A stretch of 34,035 nt of DNA from the NCBI GenBank assembly GCA_012799095.1, contig JAAZLX010000091.1, forward strand, positions 1 to 34,035. Direction: 5' to 3'. Position numbers and translations under genes: made by a program. This document shows positions 21,246-32,535 of the stretch, piece by piece. Positions within the stretch are counted from its first letter, which is position 1. Each line of letters begins with the position of its first letter. The stretch is from Tissierellia bacterium. Lineage in GTDB: Bacteria; Bacillota; Clostridia; Peptostreptococcales; Acidaminobacteraceae. The notes beneath the pieces are model-generated. The model did not search any database. It was not told the origin of the DNA and saw only the letters and a program-made list of their open reading frames with translations.

Positions 21246-21321
21246 ATCGACTAAGGAAAAGGGATTGCTCCCTTCCCCTCGTCTAAGAACCGTACATGAG
21301 AGTTTCCCACTCATACGGCTC
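21246..21321 (-). mobile_element. Group II intron 3' end (domains V and VI)
   Basis: On the - strand, GAGCCGTATGAG...CATGTACGGTTC (21321-21287) is a textbook group II intron domain V, with the lower stem, the two-base bulge and a GAAA-containing tip. It is followed by a domain VI hairpin (GGGGAAGGGA-GCAA-TCCCTTTTCC) with an unpaired A shortly before the end GTCGAT, which matches the -AY 3' border. The next base starts the transposase codon TAT, so the intron sits inside the IS3 gene. I see no reverse transcriptase frame upstream, so only the 3' end of a dead intron seems to be left. Confidence 0.8.
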
Positions 21322-21756
21322 AAGCATTTCTTCACTTTTTCAAGCGGCGATTGGCGAATGGAGTTTCAGTTTTCTCAGGAGAAAGTACTCTTTATCTAAG
21401 AATGGATTTTTCGAGATTTGCAATTTTGGATGCCTCACTATGGGAATTCTCCTGAGGTTGATCTACTGGAATAAAGTGTAAGTTTGAATATCATTTACTC
21501 ACTATTTCGTTATTTTTTGAAAATACCAATAACCTCAAATCACATACAACAGCTTAAGAGTTTGAGTCCGTTAGTTTCCACTTACGCAAATCTTATCTTC
21601 TCTTTTCAACCGGAAACTTTGGTTTTTTATTCTCGTTACCTTTAAAATCAAGTGATTTGTATTAATGGTCTAAAAAGAGTTATAATCTTTCTTAGGGTGA
21701 CTTTCAAACGAAGCATCGTTTGTCCTTAATCTTAGATAAACAAAGTTTGTGAATCA
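21322..21756. other. Gene-free junction region
   Basis: This stretch is AT-rich and has stops in all frames; small ORFs such as 21296-21481 look accidental. It holds one perfect 10-base inverted repeat (CTCAGGAGAA at 21374-21383 and TTCTCCTGAG at 21447-21456). It probably consists of decayed intron or insertion sequence DNA joined to the backbone upstream of rnfC. I find no RNA gene. Confidence 0.45.
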
Positions 21757-25861: not shown

Positions 25862-26878
25862 ATGATTGAATTCAAAGAGCTCTTGATGCCGATTGTCAGC
25901 ATGGGTGGTTTAGGCGTCGCTTTTGGTGGTTTGCTGGCCTTTGCTTCGCAAAAGTTTGAAGTAAAAAGTGACCCCCGGGCAGATGAAATCAACGCTGTGT
26001 TACCGGCGGCCAACTGCGGGGGCTGTGGTTATCCTGGCTGTATGAACTATGCCATCGCTGTCGCCAAAGGCGAAGCTGTCAATAAATGCACCGTCGGAGG
26101 ACCTGCGGTGGCAGAAAAGGTAGCTGCTATCATGGGAGTCGATGCCGTCGATGCCGGAGAGCGGATGGTGGCACGGGTCCATTGTAATGGTGGGATCCAT
26201 GCGGTCGATGAGTTTGACTATCAAGGCATCTTAAGTTGCCGGGCCATGAATCTCGTCAGTGGTGGCCCGAAAGCCTGTAAAAACGGCTGTCTGGGCTGCG
26301 GAGATTGTATGGACGTCTGTCGGTTCGGTGCCATCGAGCTGGTCGACGGAGTAGCCAAAATAATTCCGGAAAAATGCACCGGCTGTCAGGCTTGTGTCAA
26401 AGCCTGTCCCAAACAGATCATCAAGATGATCCCTGCCATTCAAAACACGGTAGTCGATTGCATGAACAATGAAATCGGTGCTCATGTCAAACGTAACTGT
26501 TCAGTCGCCTGTATTGCCTGCAGGATGTGCGAAAAAGCCTGTCGCTTTGATGCCATCCATGTCGTCAATAATATTGCATCGATCGACTATGATAAATGTA
26601 CGGACTGCATGGAGTGTTTTGAAGTCTGTCCGACCAATGCGATCACTGCCAATCCCGAGATGAAGGTGGTGGCAGAAGTGATTGATGAAAAGTGCATCGG
26701 CTGCACCATCTGTGCTAAAAATTGTCCGACCGAATGTATTTCAGGTGAACTGAAACAGGTGCATAAGGTCAATCAAGCTGAGTGTATCGGCTGTAAAATC
26801 TGTTATGAAAAATGTCCAAAAGATGCGATCGCTCTCATCCCTGTGGACTCAAAGAAAAAAATGAAGGAAACCGCTTAG
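25862..26878 (+). CDS. rnfB: Rnf complex subunit B (multi-cluster ferredoxin-type)
   Basis: RnfB accepts electrons from reduced ferredoxin and passes them into the membrane part. After one N-terminal helix, AANCGGCGYPGC begins an N-terminal 4Fe-4S site, and six ferredoxin motifs C-x2-C-x2-C-x3-C follow (CLGCGDCMDVC, CTGCQACVKAC, CIACRMCEKAC, CTDCMECFEVC, CIGCTICAKNC, CIGCKICYEKC). At 338 residues this fits the long, cluster-rich clostridial RnfB rather than the short proteobacterial one. It is the last gene of the operon and its stop lies inside a hairpin terminator. Confidence 0.95.
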   Translation: MIEFKELLMPIVSMGGLGVAFGGLLAFASQKFEVKSDPRADEINAVLPAANCGGCGYPGCMNYAIAVAKGEAVNKCTVGGPAVAEKVAAIMGVDAVDAGERMVARVHCNGGIHAVDEFDYQGILSCRAMNLVSGGPKACKNGCLGCGDCMDVCRFGAIELVDGVAKIIPEKCTGCQACVKACPKQIIKMIPAIQNTVVDCMNNEIGAHVKRNCSVACIACRMCEKACRFDAIHVVNNIASIDYDKCTDCMECFEVCPTNAITANPEMKVVAEVIDEKCIGCTICAKNCPTECISGELKQVHKVNQAECIGCKICYEKCPKDAIALIPVDSKKKMKETA

Positions 26879-26886
26879 GTTTCCTT
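26864..26886. terminator. Bidirectional terminator between rnfB and the DUF4364-like gene
   Basis: AAGGAAACC and GGTTTCCTT form a perfect 9-base-pair stem with loop GCTTA. On the - strand it is followed by CATTTTTTTCTTT, a good T-run; on the + strand the T-run is poor. It overlaps the 3' ends of both converging genes. Confidence 0.7.
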
Positions 26887-27378
26887 CTGTGTTTGAATCA
26901 AGGTTTTTAAAGCATCAATGAAATCTTCATTGTTGGAGAAAGACAGCTCGTCGAAATCAGGATACTCTTCCGGTGACAGATAGAGCTGGATCCCCAAAAT
27001 TCGCTGATGATCCTTTAACTGCATTATCTGCAGCATATGGTGACGGGCATCGTACCATGATTGCCACTCATAATTAGTCAAGACATCATTTTGAGCGGTG
27101 ATCGAATCCAATTTACTGATAGTCTCCGGATCGATCCGGTCCTGAAAGAAACTTAAGACGACCATCCCGTTATCGCTCAATATCAGCTCATCGTTTAGTC
27201 GTTTGACCAGATCCGAATCGACAATATCATCTAACATGGTTTGCCACTTACTGTCATCGAAGTCCAGCCCGGTCTGAAACAAGTGCTTGAGCCGGCTGAT
27301 GGCAGCTGATTGACCAAATAAACTGATGGCATATAAAAGGCTGAGACGGCCTTCAACCTGGTTTTCATCAACACTCAT
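26875..27378 (-). CDS. DUF4364-like winged-helix protein
   Basis: This 167-residue protein begins with a helical region (LSLLYAISLFGQSAAISRLKHLF...), followed by LVKRLNDELILSDNGMVVLSFFQDRI, which looks like the wing and end of a small winged-helix DNA-binding domain. The rest is alpha/beta with YEWQSWYDARHHMLQIMQL. Length and layout fit the clostridial DUF4364 family of probable regulators, but no single residue motif proves it. It has GGAGGTGCC upstream and its own promoter-like sequence. It converges on rnfB with a 4-base overlap and has no evident link to it. Confidence 0.55.
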   Translation of the reverse strand: MSVDENQVEGRLSLLYAISLFGQSAAISRLKHLFQTGLDFDDSKWQTMLDDIVDSDLVKRLNDELILSDNGMVVLSFFQDRIDPETISKLDSITAQNDVLTNYEWQSWYDARHHMLQIMQLKDHQRILGIQLYLSPEEYPDFDELSFSNNEDFIDALKTLIQTQKET

Positions 27379-27502: not shown

Positions 27503-28735
27503 TTAGAAGAAAACTTCTTTTACCGCTGGCTTGGTCTGAGCGATCAGATTGCCACGGGTGAAGTTATACAACACTTCTGATTTTAAATTGAGCGCATCAT
27601 AGAAGTTCTTGGCATTCAGAACGATAAAGCTGGCATCGTTTCCTTCTTTAATACCATAGCTTTCTCCCAAATGAAGGGTCTTGGCGGCATTGTAAGTCAC
27701 AAAATGATAGGAGTTGAGGATCTCTTCATATCCCATCATCTGGCCGACGTGAAGTCCCATGTGGACTGCATCTCGCATATTGCCATCACCCAGTGGATAC
27801 CAGGGATCGAAGATATCATCATGACCAAAGCTGACATTCATGCCGGCGGCCACCAGTTCTTTGACCCGGGTCATCCCACGTCTTTTCGGATAGCTGTCGA
27901 ACCGACCCTGAAGATGAATATTGATCAGCGGATTGGCAACAAAATTAATCTTGCTCATCCGAAGCAAACGGAACAGCTTTGATACATAGGCGTTGTTATA
28001 TGAATGCATCGCGGTGGTATGTGAGGCGGTGACCCGGTCTTTCAGCCCGCTTTCCAATGCTCGGGCTGCCAATACTTCGAGACCGCGGGATTGCTCATCG
28101 TCGATCTCATCACAGTGGACATCGACCAGCAGATCATACTTTTCCGCCAGAGCGACAGCAAAGTTCAGACTCTCGACGGCGTACTCACGGGTGAATTCAA
28201 AGTGGGGGATAGCACCGATGGCATCAACGCCCATTTTAGCGGCATTTTCCATCAACTGCTTGCCGTTGGGAAAACTGAGTATTCCTTCCTGAGGAAACGC
28301 AACGATTTGGAGATCGATCCAGTCTTTGACTTCCTCACGAACTTCAAGCAGACCTTCGGTGGCAATCAATGTCGGATCAGTCACATCAACATGTGTCCGG
28401 ACATGGCCGATACCATTTTTAGCCATCCTTCGGAGTGTTTCAACCACTCGTTCCTTGAGGTTTTCTTTGGTCAGCGTCGGTTTATACTCCGACCAGCACT
28501 GAATCCCCTCAAACAAGGTTCCTGTCAGATTCCAGCGTGGTTGGCCGGCGGTCAGGGCACTGTCCAGATGGACGTGTGAATCGATGAATTGAGGAAGAGC
28601 CAGGCAGTCAGTCCCGTCAATCACCTCGCTATCTTCGACGACAAGATTGGGTCCGATCTTTTCAAACTTTCCGTTGTTGATATAAATATCAACCGGATCC
28701 GGACTATTCTCCAGCGTTATATTTTTTATCAGCAT
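27503..28735 (-). CDS. codA: Cytosine deaminase (CodA family amidohydrolase)
   Basis: CodA hydrolyses cytosine to uracil and ammonia in the cytosol. The metal-site motifs of the amidohydrolase fold are all present: DSHVHLDSA (about residue 52), VDVHCDEIDDEQS (about 205), ASHTTAM (about 236) and FGHDDIFDPWYPLG (about 305, catalytic Asp). EGIQCWSEYKP matches the CodA substrate region. At 410 residues it has normal length. Related enzymes act on isoguanine or other rings, so the exact substrate is inferred mainly from the neighbouring permease. It follows codB by 19 bases, which hold GGGAGGA. Confidence 0.88.
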   Translation of the reverse strand: MLIKNITLENSPDPVDIYINNGKFEKIGPNLVVEDSEVIDGTDCLALPQFIDSHVHLDSALTAGQPRWNLTGTLFEGIQCWSEYKPTLTKENLKERVVETLRRMAKNGIGHVRTHVDVTDPTLIATEGLLEVREEVKDWIDLQIVAFPQEGILSFPNGKQLMENAAKMGVDAIGAIPHFEFTREYAVESLNFAVALAEKYDLLVDVHCDEIDDEQSRGLEVLAARALESGLKDRVTASHTTAMHSYNNAYVSKLFRLLRMSKINFVANPLINIHLQGRFDSYPKRRGMTRVKELVAAGMNVSFGHDDIFDPWYPLGDGNMRDAVHMGLHVGQMMGYEEILNSYHFVTYNAAKTLHLGESYGIKEGNDASFIVLNAKNFYDALNLKSEVLYNFTRGNLIAQTKPAVKEVFF

Positions 28736-28754
28736 TGTTTCCTCCCGGATTGAC

Positions 28755-29999
28755 TCATTTAGCTAAACGATTTCCTACATAATATACGATGACAGATGCA
28801 ATCATAGCATTGATAGCTGCGACACCCCAGTTGAGGTAATTACCGACTAAAGCACCGGCAATGACACCCAGGATGGCAAACCAATTGACATGGCGATCGA
28901 CACCTTCCTCGTTGTCATATTTTGATCGATTCAAGAAAAAGTCGAGAGTGATGATCGCTCCGATCGGCGGCAATGTGGCATTGAGGAATGACAGCCAACC
29001 GACGAAGTTATTGTAAAGCCAAAGGGCTGTAATAGTCCCAATAAAACCGGCAATTATAACAACAGGCCGGTGGGGAAGCTTGGTGATATTGGAAATCCCC
29101 AGACTCGAAGTATACAGTGCATTGTCATTTGTGGTCCAGATATTAGCACCTAAGACTAATAGTGCGAACAGAGTCAAACCTTGAGCGATCATGACATAGA
29201 AGATGTCTTCCTGGCCGGTGAAAGCTCCACCGACAGCACCAAACATGAACATCAGGGTATTACCCAGGAAAAAAGCAATAACAGTTGTAACGACAGCACT
29301 CCAGCTGCTTTTAGCAAACCTGACAAAGTTAGGAGTTGCTGTACCACCCGAAACGAATGATCCAATGACCATACCGACCCCTGTAGCCACGGTCATACCA
29401 CCGACTGATTGATCAAAAATGGCCATCAGACCGCCGCCTTGAGAGGTCGCTGTCACCATCGAGTAAATTCCTAGAACAGCAATCAGCGGGACTGATATAT
29501 ATGATACGATTTGAAGCCCTTTGATGCCGAAATAGGCAGAAGATGTCATCAATGCACCAGCAATGATAATAAGAATCCATGGATTAATGTTTAATAAGTC
29601 TGCCGCCGGAACAGCAAACATGGCAACTCCGACACCAAACCAACCTACCTGAGTAAAACTGATCAAAGCAGATGGCAGATAGGAACCGGTCTTTCCAAAG
29701 GAACGCTGGGCCAACAAGTCAAGACTGAGGCCGGTCTGCGATCCGATATAGCCCAGCACGCCGGTATAAGCACCTAAAATAATACCACCAATTACGATCG
29801 CGGTAAGAAACTGGGGAAAATTGAGACCATTGGCCATCTTGGCCCCAACGCTCATACTGGCTGAGAAGAAGGTGAAGCCCAACATAATAAAGAACATGGG
29901 CCAGAAACCTTTTCGGGCAGAATGAGGAACTGCGGTGAACGTATAGTCGTGGTCGATTTCGGTTGTGTGTGTAGTTGTCGGTTTAACTTTTGGATCCAT
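28755..29999 (-). CDS. codB: Cytosine permease (CodB, NCS1 family)
   Basis: This 414-residue protein has about twelve membrane helices and NCS1 features: VPHSARKGFWPMFFIMLGFTFFSASM at the first helix, LAQRSFGKTGSYLPSALISFTQVGWFGVG, and NDNALYTSSLGISN later. It imports cytosine (or a related base) with a cation. The ORF track start at 30146 is too far upstream; ATG 29999 has AAGGAGG just before it and yields the usual hydrophilic N-terminus MDPKVKPTTT. It forms a two-gene operon with codA. Confidence 0.88.
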   Translation of the reverse strand: MDPKVKPTTTHTTEIDHDYTFTAVPHSARKGFWPMFFIMLGFTFFSASMSVGAKMANGLNFPQFLTAIVIGGIILGAYTGVLGYIGSQTGLSLDLLAQRSFGKTGSYLPSALISFTQVGWFGVGVAMFAVPAADLLNINPWILIIIAGALMTSSAYFGIKGLQIVSYISVPLIAVLGIYSMVTATSQGGGLMAIFDQSVGGMTVATGVGMVIGSFVSGGTATPNFVRFAKSSWSAVVTTVIAFFLGNTLMFMFGAVGGAFTGQEDIFYVMIAQGLTLFALLVLGANIWTTNDNALYTSSLGISNITKLPHRPVVIIAGFIGTITALWLYNNFVGWLSFLNATLPPIGAIITLDFFLNRSKYDNEEGVDRHVNWFAILGVIAGALVGNYLNWGVAAINAMIASVIVYYVGNRLAK

Positions 30000-30316
30000 T
30001 GAGTCCTCCTTAAAACTATTTGTTTTCAGGCTACCATAAATTGGTAATTGAAACCACAAATATGTCACAAATGGACAGAATCTATAAAAAAGTGCTAAAA
30101 AGACATCAAAAAAGTTCTGGTTGAATAAGTAAATTAACCAAGCCATGTTAACTGATATTATGTCAATTTTAACGATTTGAGCGTTAATTTTGCTGTTTTG
30201 ACTATTTTACCAATATTTTTCGGTACACTGGTATTCCCGGATTCCAAGCTGGAATTTGAACCGGGAATGGTCACCTGAATTCACAACTGAGATAAAGTGG
30301 AAACCAAGGAGGAAAC
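30000..30316. other. Divergent intergenic region between codB and the RAYT-like gene
   Basis: Besides the codB ribosome binding site at the left end, this region holds an inverted repeat TTAACG-N7-CGTTAA (30169-30187), a possible operator, and a large nested hairpin at 30233-30268 listed separately. TTGACT near 30197 with TACACT near 30223 could be a + strand promoter, but the 20-base spacing is long. I find no purine-type riboswitch. AGGAGG precedes the next gene. Confidence 0.4.
30233..30268 (+). repeat. Nested palindrome / hairpin, possible REP-like element
   Basis: ATTCCCGG (30233-30240) pairs with CCGGGAAT (30261-30268), and directly inside it ATTCCA-AGC-TGGAAT (30241-30255) forms a second stem with a five-base gap TTGAA. 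The structure lies 48 bases upstream of a RAYT-like gene, and RAYT proteins are known for acting on such imperfect palindromes. It could equally be a leader-RNA structure or terminator-like element, although no T-run follows. Confidence 0.5.
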
Positions 30317-31066
30317 ATGGCAAAAATCTATCATATCGTTATTGGATGTATTCAACCGATCGGACTGTTTCGCAAGACTGAAGATGAAAGTCGAATGAAG
30401 GATTATATCAGAATATACAAACAACGGACCGGAACAAAAAATTATGGTTATAGTTTTACGGATGATCGACTCCATTTGGCTCTGAGAGACCACAATAATA
30501 AAGCCCGGGATTTTTTGAGCGGCGTATGTGATGCCTATACTTATTATTATCAGAATAGGCGATCATCAGAAGTCCGGATAAAATATAAAATGATCGAAAT
30601 AAATCCCCGTCAGGAATTATTCGATCTACTCCGGTTTATTCACAACAGAGGGCGAAACTCAGCTGTGGAATATCGCGATTATTCGCGCTATATAAAAAGT
30701 GAACTGGTCGATATCGGACCGGTGTTAGCAACGTTACATACGGATCAAATGAAAAGCAAAGAATTATTTTTTGAAGAAATGGTCTATGAACCACAATCGG
30801 ATTATTACATCGAATTTGCCCGCAGGGAAATCTTCGAACTCGACAAAATGACCAAACGGAGACAACGGGCGTATGAATTCATGGAAGATTTTCTTGATGA
30901 GATCGGACTGAGTCGAATGGAGTTTCTTAATGGTGATCATCATACAGAGCGAGTAGAACTGATCGAGAAGTTTCGAAAGGAAACAGATTTAAGTTATCGA
31001 GATATCGGCTATGTCTTTGAGTTATCTCATACCAGCATAATCCGATTGTATCAACAAAAGAACTGA
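30317..31066 (+). CDS. RAYT-like (IS200/Y1-related) protein with degenerate active site
   Basis: The 249-residue protein follows the layout of REP-associated tyrosine transposases: IYHIVIGCIQPIGLFRKTED at the N-terminus, then NYGYSFTDDRLHLAL where the family has NHVHLL, then YTYYYQNRR, then LLRFIHNRGRNS...YRDYSRYIKS where the family has YIHLNPVRAG...DYxWSSY. The first His of the HUH motif is Arg and the usual Tyr of the YIHLNP segment is Phe, so DNA cleavage is unlikely. The C-terminus (LSYRDIGYVFELSHTSIIRLY) is a helix-turn-helix. I infer a domesticated DNA-binding protein, perhaps a regulator. AGGAGG precedes ATG 30317. Confidence 0.55.
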   Translation: MAKIYHIVIGCIQPIGLFRKTEDESRMKDYIRIYKQRTGTKNYGYSFTDDRLHLALRDHNNKARDFLSGVCDAYTYYYQNRRSSEVRIKYKMIEINPRQELFDLLRFIHNRGRNSAVEYRDYSRYIKSELVDIGPVLATLHTDQMKSKELFFEEMVYEPQSDYYIEFARREIFELDKMTKRRQRAYEFMEDFLDEIGLSRMEFLNGDHHTERVELIEKFRKETDLSYRDIGYVFELSHTSIIRLYQQKN

Positions 31067-31129: not shown

Positions 31130-31660
31130 ATGCGGGAACGTCAAATTCTTTTTTCGAGTAATCAAATTGCAACCAAAGTTTCTGAGCTCGGAAAACAGAT
31201 AGCTCAGGACTATGAAAATAAAAACTTACTTGTTATCGGTTTGTTAAAGGGAAGTTTTGTCTTTGTGGCCGATTTGATGAGAGCAATAGATAAAAAAATA
31301 GTCATTGAATTTATGACTACTTCAAGTTACCATGATGCGGAGCATTCCACCGGACGAGTGGAGATCGTGCAGGATCTGGAACGGGATCTGACAAATTTTG
31401 ATGTGTTGATCGTCGATGATATAATTGATTCCGGTTTGACTATGAAATCAGTCTATGAATTGATCAAATCCAGAAATCCGAACAGCCTTAAGACGTGTGC
31501 TTTGTTAGACAAACCTTCGCGGCGCAAAGTCGAATTCGAATGTGATTATGTAGGCTTTACCATTGACGACCTGTTTATTGTCGGGTACGGTTTAAACTAC
31601 GGTGATTACTATCGCAATGTGGATCATATCTTTATCTTTTTGCAGGAAGACGAAGAATAA
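31130..31660 (+). CDS. hpt: Hypoxanthine(-guanine) phosphoribosyltransferase
   Basis: This enzyme salvages hypoxanthine and guanine by joining them to PRPP, giving IMP and GMP. VIGLLKGSFVFVADL (about residue 36), MTTSSYHD (about residue 64) and the PRPP-binding VLIVDDIIDSGLTM (about residue 101) are the classic motifs. ALLDKPSRRKVEFECDYVGFTI follows with the base-contacting Lys. The length of 176 residues is normal. It has a strong ribosome binding site (AGGAGGG) and its own terminator, so it is probably a single-gene unit. Its closeness to codBA suggests a base salvage neighbourhood. Confidence 0.95.
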   Translation: MRERQILFSSNQIATKVSELGKQIAQDYENKNLLVIGLLKGSFVFVADLMRAIDKKIVIEFMTTSSYHDAEHSTGRVEIVQDLERDLTNFDVLIVDDIIDSGLTMKSVYELIKSRNPNSLKTCALLDKPSRRKVEFECDYVGFTIDDLFIVGYGLNYGDYYRNVDHIFIFLQEDEE

Positions 31661-31691
31661 CCCATTGTCCTTTCAGACAATGGGCTTTTTT
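31661..31691 (+). terminator. Terminator of hpt
   Basis: CCCATTGTC and GACAATGGG form a perfect 9-base-pair stem with loop CTTTCA, followed by CTTTTTT. It begins right after the hpt stop and its T-run touches the stop of the converging gene. Confidence 0.9.
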
Positions 31692-32535
31692 ATTGAGTGA
31701 ATTCTTCAATTAATTGTCGAATGTTTTCAAAAACCCGTTGTTCGGGTTTTTCTGCGCTTAGGTAGAGATGAACCGCACTGTCAGCACTGAAATCCCGACG
31801 TACCCGGTTGACAATGATCGAATTTTCAATATCTGTCTCCCGGCTAAATGAATCCTTCAGGACGACAGTTGGGACCACGTTTAATACATCGCGAACACTG
31901 TCCATATTGAACGGTTTGATAAATTCGATGTTGAGATGATATTTTGTCTGGGTTTGCTTGATCAATGGACGAATGGAAGCAGTATAGTGAACCTGATTAT
32001 TGTCGATCAATCGAATCGTTTCATTGATCAGACTCATTTCATCCTCAGTCATCTTATCAGGCAGGAAGCGTGGTTCATCATCACATGGTGGGAATATCGT
32101 GATTGCCACACGGCGTAAAGCAAACCGCTGATGAAGTTTGCGCAGTATTGGTCCGAATACATGTAAATGAAGTGATGGTGCAGCCAAGAGCAATTGACTC
32201 GCGGTATGAGCATGATCAAACAACACCAGAGGAACAGTCGGTTCATTAATGAACGAGCCTGTCAGATCGATCGTGCGGATCCCTTTATCTTCCAGCTTCA
32301 GCACAATCTCCTTCCGCTCCGGTGTACCAAAGCAAATTGCCAAGTCGATATCATTATCAAGCAATTCATGGGTATAATGGACCACAGGGAATTCCACACC
32401 ACCCAATTCAATCAGTGGTGCCGGCTGAACAAAATCGATCAAGACAAAATCATGCTCGGTTGTAGCCTGCTCTTCATAACTGTGTAAAAACTTTTGTGCG
32501 AGGTCATCGAGCACCCCAATAATCGCAATCTTCAT
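31690..32535 (-). CDS. Aspartate-semialdehyde-dehydrogenase-like protein without the catalytic Cys
   Basis: The 281-residue protein starts MKIAIIGVLDDLAQKFLHSYEE, a dinucleotide-binding start like Asd. It goes on with VEFPVVHYTHELLDNDIDLAICFGTPERKE and IRTIDLTGSFINEPTVPLVLF, which align with the Asd segments for the cofactor domain and the 'D-S-S-A-F-R' region. Where Asd has NPNCST with the nucleophile Cys, this protein reads AAPSLHLHVFGPILRKL. The only nearby Cys is in FPPCDDE. It is also shorter than Asd (about 330-370). It thus resembles the Usg-1 class of Asd paralogues of unknown role. The start has AAGGAG upstream. Confidence 0.6.
   Translation of the reverse strand: MKIAIIGVLDDLAQKFLHSYEEQATTEHDFVLIDFVQPAPLIELGGVEFPVVHYTHELLDNDIDLAICFGTPERKEIVLKLEDKGIRTIDLTGSFINEPTVPLVLFDHAHTASQLLLAAPSLHLHVFGPILRKLHQRFALRRVAITIFPPCDDEPRFLPDKMTEDEMSLINETIRLIDNNQVHYTASIRPLIKQTQTKYHLNIEFIKPFNMDSVRDVLNVVPTVVLKDSFSRETDIENSIIVNRVRRDFSADSAVHLYLSAEKPEQRVFENIRQLIEEFTQ

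Follow-up and report, generated by a model that had tools for sequence, protein, structure and literature searches.

The gene at nt 30317–31066 (forward strand) of the window, that is, the whole 34,035-nt stretch of Tissierellia bacterium DNA analysed here (contig JAAZLX010000091.1), raises the question of what a transposase-like protein is kept for once its catalytic residues are gone. RAYTs are textbook domesticated bacterial transposases and are described as active HUH enzymes. The gene, here designated type A, is single-copy and encodes a catalytically degenerate, TIRYT/RAYT-derived Y1 protein of 249 aa; it begins with ATG, has an intact frame and is preceded by the Shine-Dalgarno sequence AGGAGG (nt 30307–30312), in keeping with the first-pass annotation, which had described a good ribosome binding site and an intact frame. 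Column alignment with 30 canonical relatives, 28 of which carried the HH, Y and NP residues in the joint alignment, placed R51-L52-H53 (nt 30467–30475) at the HUH motif and F107 (nt 30635–30637) at the catalytic Tyr, where FIHNRG replaces YIHxNP. Against HUH-intact relatives the protein thus reads DDRLHLALRD and LRFIHNRG, and both placements made from the sequence beforehand, HUH to RLH and YIHLNP to FIHNRG, agreed with this alignment. Searched alone, the window protein had nothing above the cut-off in Pfam or NCBIfam and no match to Pfam Y1_Tnp.

The fold was nevertheless recognisable. An AlphaFold2 model, for which the input was an alignment of the 12 orthologues only (see below), had a pLDDT of 89 and a pTM of 0.71, with the predicted order β-α-β-β-α-β-α followed by a helical tail; the Y1, ferredoxin-like domain would cover residues 1 to about 110 (nt 30317–30646, forward strand). 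In a Foldseek comparison with the PDB, the first 26 places were taken by IS200/IS605-type transposases (ISDra2, IS608 and S. tokodaii; E 3e-5 to 5e-4), and the RAYT 4er8 was found at E 1.6e-3. The profile of the type A family matched HUH-intact TIRYT/RAYT transposases with E values down to 1e-27. Predicted structure and sequence profile therefore both indicate a Y1, IS200/IS605-like fold in the window protein, as the earlier reading of its fold layout had proposed, and the ferredoxin-like element on which that reading depended is contained in the predicted model.

In 99 related genomes, 11 clear orthologues were detected, with identities from 68% down to 32% and E values of 1e-116 to 1e-33, besides many weaker matches (E 1e-11 to 1e-3); those of the latter that were aligned were mostly canonical Y1 transposases with NHVHLLIKE and LRYIHQNPLKAG. 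The resulting 12 orthologues, all with intact reading frames in 12 genomes of six genera, formed a discrete clade confined to one bacterial family: among 395 genomes of the order they scored 336–355 bits versus at most 92 for everything else, in 391 genomes of the class the profile gave at most 96 bits outside the orthologues, and in the tree they were monophyletic with an SH-aLRT of 100. The nearest outside relatives (L150 and L151) are HUH-intact and possess inverted GGGACGGTTCTTTG-like ends on both sides. Within the clade, the first HUH His was kept in none of the 12 members, the position being R, V, L, C, S or A, and the NP motif was lost from all of them in the joint alignment; the second His was kept in ten, two members being without both, and the catalytic Tyr was kept in five and lost from seven. 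Since this Tyr persists, within LRYIHSK, in L003, which at 68% identity is the closest orthologue, loss of the first His is regarded as the defining one. The claim that both the HUH and Tyr residues were lost thus stands for the window protein, with R51 and F107, but does not extend to the clade as a whole with respect to Tyr.

Eight of the 12 orthologues share a locus with the order rnf genes, a DUF4364-like gene on the opposite strand, the type A gene and hpt, and the four more distant ones adjoin genes for a 1400-aa protein and an S41 peptidase. In the window, the hypoxanthine phosphoribosyltransferase gene hpt was located at nt 31130–31660 (forward strand; TIGR01203 and synteny), and the divergent DUF4364-like neighbour of the rnf-hpt subclade at nt 26875–27378 (reverse strand; synteny and a PF14277 match at E 0.003, under the curated cut-off). 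Between the latter and the type A gene lies codBA (nt 27503–29999, reverse strand), comprising genes for cytosine permease (nt 28755–29999) and cytosine deaminase (nt 27503–28735), an arrangement observed only in the window's own genome (G000) and a same-genus relative (G001). Conservation beside hpt and codBA had been suggested; it was borne out for hpt, together with rnf and DUF4364, but not for codBA, which at two of 12 genomes was rejected as a conserved partner. Between the two closest orthologues, synonymous sites were saturated (pS 0.87) versus a pN of 0.19, values comparable to those of neighbouring genes; the type A gene is under purifying selection and maintained. In L004–L009, a conserved small ORF of about 40 aa with a membrane-like sequence (FVILxSIQYTLLQILxExRxIR) is situated between the DUF4364 and type A genes, about 90–210 bp upstream of the type A start; it is missing from the window, where codBA is found instead. 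On the other side of hpt, nt 31690–32535 (reverse strand) of the window encode a 281-aa protein without a Pfam match, conserved at about 30% identity beside hpt in relatives.

The part of the protein that is best conserved is the tail, in which conservation, Bac_DnaA_C matches and a PDB match indicate a DnaA-domain-IV-like helix-turn-helix (TDLSYRDIGYVFELSHTSIIRL; nt 30941–31060, forward strand). Among the 12 orthologues this segment bears most of the invariant residues (TDLSxRDIG...SHTxxIR), and the Y1 half drifts far more. Bac_DnaA_C was matched by ten of the 12 members at E<=1 (best 9e-4), and the best PDB sequence match of the family profile was DnaA domain IV in 3pvp (FREETDLSFRDIGYVLGMSHTSV), a weak match (E 0.06) that does, however, span the residues with which DnaA contacts its box. 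The likeness to DnaA lies in the HTH sequence TDLS...IG...HT; type A proteins, unlike DnaA, are without an AAA+ domain and have this tail fused to a dead Y1 domain. The tail noticed in the first-pass annotation is thus retained, and the domestication proposed there is supported by the Y1 fold, the lost catalytic residues, the vertical, single-copy and syntenic inheritance, the purifying selection and the conserved HTH.

Upstream of the gene, in the stretch separating it from the divergent codB, nt 30242–30254 carry a candidate operator, TTCCA-AGC-TGGAA, which lies 75 bp ahead of the ATG; Rfam gave no riboswitch for this intergenic region. TTCCA-N3-TGGAA occurs 75–78 bp ahead of the start codon in four genomes (those of the window and, at -76 to -78, L003, L004 and L006). 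When 5-bp inverted repeats with spacers of 0–10 were sought in the 12 type A upstream regions and in 500 Markov shuffles, one common to four of the 12 regions was obtained in 0/500 shuffles. The exact sequence was present in 4/12 orthologues, representing two genera and thus not fully independent, and the half-site in 8/12; its left half, TTCC[AT], was found between -75 and -80 in each of the eight members of the rnf-hpt subclade, with no second occurrence of such a word in the final 100 bp. The palindrome was absent upstream of the genes of the second subclade (L010–L013), where the upstream regions differ. In G000 there are four copies, of which the other three lie inside ORFs, named by eye as Ser/Thr-kinase-like, ABC-permease-like and a long ORF near ribosomal protein genes; no other intergenic copy was found, the copy in G001 is also within a kinase-like ORF, and a regulon of this site was rejected. 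The core TCCA occurs also in the DnaA box TTATCCACA, an overlap that would fit a DnaA-like recognition helix and is mentioned as a lead only. The site is embedded in a longer imperfect palindrome (nt 30233–30268) with outer arms ATTCCCGG and CCGGGAAT, previously taken as an upstream hairpin for binding. These outer arms were not conserved in L004 or L006, and in L003 only the left arm was, in part; the long hairpin is thus not conserved, and the inner TTCCA-N3-TGGAA is shared. Because conservation is restricted to the inner palindrome, a duplex operator is favoured, with hairpin binding as the lesser possibility.

Transposon ends were lacking. No terminal inverted repeats of the GGGGACGG type flanked the gene in the 12 type A loci; behind the window gene, a lone end-like match with three mismatches at a distance of 15 bp (p about 0.01) was not shared by L003, and TIR ends around type A were therefore rejected. 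REP-type association was rejected as well, given the four copies of the palindrome in G000, three of them inside ORFs. No other Y1_Tnp-family transposase was detected elsewhere in this genome as a possible partner. Thus, of the earlier label "REP-associated Y1", the Y1 descent is retained, and the relatives are TIR-flanked proteins of the TIRYT type (subclass 2.1) rather than REP-associated ones.

TIRYTs were defined with GGGGWSAS ends, and HUH and Tyr were conserved in all those aligned (PMC3733652); TnpA-REP subclass 2.1 was described as having Bac_DnaA_C or HTH tails (PMC6006769). Type A proteins resemble these in Y1 fold, length and the HTH, DnaA-IV-like C-terminal tail, and their nearest outside relatives are HUH-intact TIRYT-type members in the order and class with inverted GGGACGG or GGGACAG ends; they differ in being without the HUH pair, the NP motif and flanking ends, in being single-copy at a fixed locus and in possessing a new upstream palindrome. 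With the E. coli TnpA-REP/RAYT (4er8), treated as domesticated yet active (PMC8266576), they have in common domestication, a single copy, vertical inheritance and the Y1 fold. However, REP hairpins are cleaved by the E. coli protein, in which HUH and Tyr115 are retained; both are lost from the window protein, and the type A site does not form a REP-like family in the window's genome.

The reading that we favour, with a probability of roughly 0.6, is that the type A protein is a domesticated, non-catalytic descendant of TIRYTs (TnpA-REP subclass 2.1) that acts as an autoregulating transcription factor. Its ancestor would have been a TIR-flanked Y1 tyrosine transposase that lost the HUH pair and its transposon ends and was inherited vertically at one chromosomal locus, with strong selection on the DnaA-IV-like HTH. 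Dimerisation or scaffolding may now be the role of the Y1 domain, and duplex DNA would be bound by the HTH, the likely target being TTCCA-N3-TGGAA upstream of the gene's own -35 region, where binding would lead to autoregulation; in the window's genome codBA, which shares the intergenic region, may be regulated too.

Part of this evidence can be read differently. If the Y1 domain had kept its ancestral affinity for hairpins in DNA or mRNA, for example in the 5′ leader of its own mRNA, the retained predicted fold would be accounted for, and TTCCA-N3-TGGAA could itself fold into a hairpin of 5 bp around a 3-nt loop; such a single-strand binder, at which the first-pass annotation had hinted, is unlikely, given a Y1 half that drifts much more than the HTH, an outer stem that is not conserved and a site upstream of the probable promoter elements, which would leave it out of the leader transcript. 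The tail might instead bind DnaA boxes and tune replication initiation or DnaA-controlled genes. Its resemblance to DnaA domain IV, which extends to the SHT/DHT residues of the recognition helix, is consistent with this, as is the report of Bac_DnaA_C tails in subclass 2.1, for which fork targeting was suggested (PMC6006769). However, the same work found TIRYT ends to be unlike DnaA boxes, the motif shared upstream of type A genes is TTCCA-N3-TGGAA and not TTATNCACA, and the profile's sequence match in the PDB, at E 0.06, is weak, which makes competition for DnaA boxes quite unlikely.

Some residual chemistry is possible in certain orthologues, because Tyr is present in five and the second His in ten. 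That the family still cleaves DNA through an altered active site, using one His and another nucleophile, is nevertheless improbable, as the first HUH position is patternless (R, V, L, C, S, A), both His are missing from two members, NP is lost from all 12 and no transposon ends are left. A recently inactivated transposase drifting to loss would also show degenerate catalytic residues, but the intact frames in 12 genomes of six genera, the saturated synonymous versus few nonsynonymous changes and the conserved locus already contradict it, and it has next to no likelihood. The reading as a regulator gains from a precedent in the same genomes, namely a second dead Y1 family (type B), in which an old transposon end lies in the promoter.

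The bacterial family to which type A is confined has type B genes (loci L043–L046, L088–L108 and L152–L178, these also covering other families) in 25 genomes, among them the window's own (L104, G000:C1:1171-1818). Ten more genomes with type B belong to three other families of the order, and types A and B co-occur in five genomes. In type B proteins, the HUH motif is lost entirely (NPQKYHLIIHANGSDLSK), the Tyr segment is often missing and most members have gained a cysteine cluster (CDTSSPFEETCDDCI); their model matched Y1 transposases, the RAYT 4er8 ranking third. The gene directly precedes those for a thioredoxin-reductase/AhpF-like protein and a protein disulfide oxidoreductase (TIGR02187) in nearly all genomes examined. 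GGGACGGTACTTGA was present in 24/24 type B upstream regions with 0–2 mismatches. The type B -35 box starts with the TTGA of this sequence, and a plausible -10 box usually follows 16–17 bp further on; an inverted copy (at most two mismatches) was located within 105 bp after the stop codon in 12 of the 24. This 14-mer occurs once per genome with few exceptions. In G034 and G025, extra copies lie about 57 bp before a gene for an ACR3/SBF-like transporter, and in G034 the motif is also near a gene for a small 4Fe-4S protein (L139, around 2714; L141, around 3172; L140, around 2936); the genes behind these extra copies constitute a candidate regulon.

Ends of this kind, at equal distances, are also carried by the HUH-intact sister group of type B (L073/L078); type B thus resembles an immobilised TIRtron in which the left end has turned into a promoter. 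With the -35 box overlapping GGGACGGTACTTGA and an inverted copy behind the gene in half of the cases, both ends could be bridged by the dead protein, giving repression through a loop. The cysteine cluster of most members and the thioredoxin-reductase/PDO cassette would fit a role in sensing redox state or thiol stress. As type B is a second dead clade, domestication of Y1 transposases as regulators would be a repeated event here. From comparison of the two families, we put at about even odds that, on no fewer than two occasions in this order, TIRYT-type Y1 transposases became catalytically dead transcription factors, the end having become the operator in type B, with bridging or looping repression and redox sensing possible, and the ends having been lost and a new palindromic operator gained in type A.

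A comparable course, in a different protein family and implying no RNA guide here, is that of TldR, in which a transposon protein loses catalysis and becomes a regulator: TldRs are TnpB-derived dead nucleases that act as RNA-guided repressors. No report of a conserved dead RAYT/TIRYT clade used as a regulator was found in the open-access literature, and in the subclass 2.1 survey sequences without the motifs were put aside as probably non-functional (PMC6006769); sequences filtered in this manner may deserve re-examination. Two vertically inherited families no longer have the chemistry, and what selection retains in them is the DNA-binding tail; the transposon end still inside the type B promoter offers a testable path from HUH transposase to transcription factor.

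Elsewhere in the window, Rfam identified a cobalamin riboswitch at nt 819–1031 and a group II intron domain at nt 21246–21323 (reverse strand).
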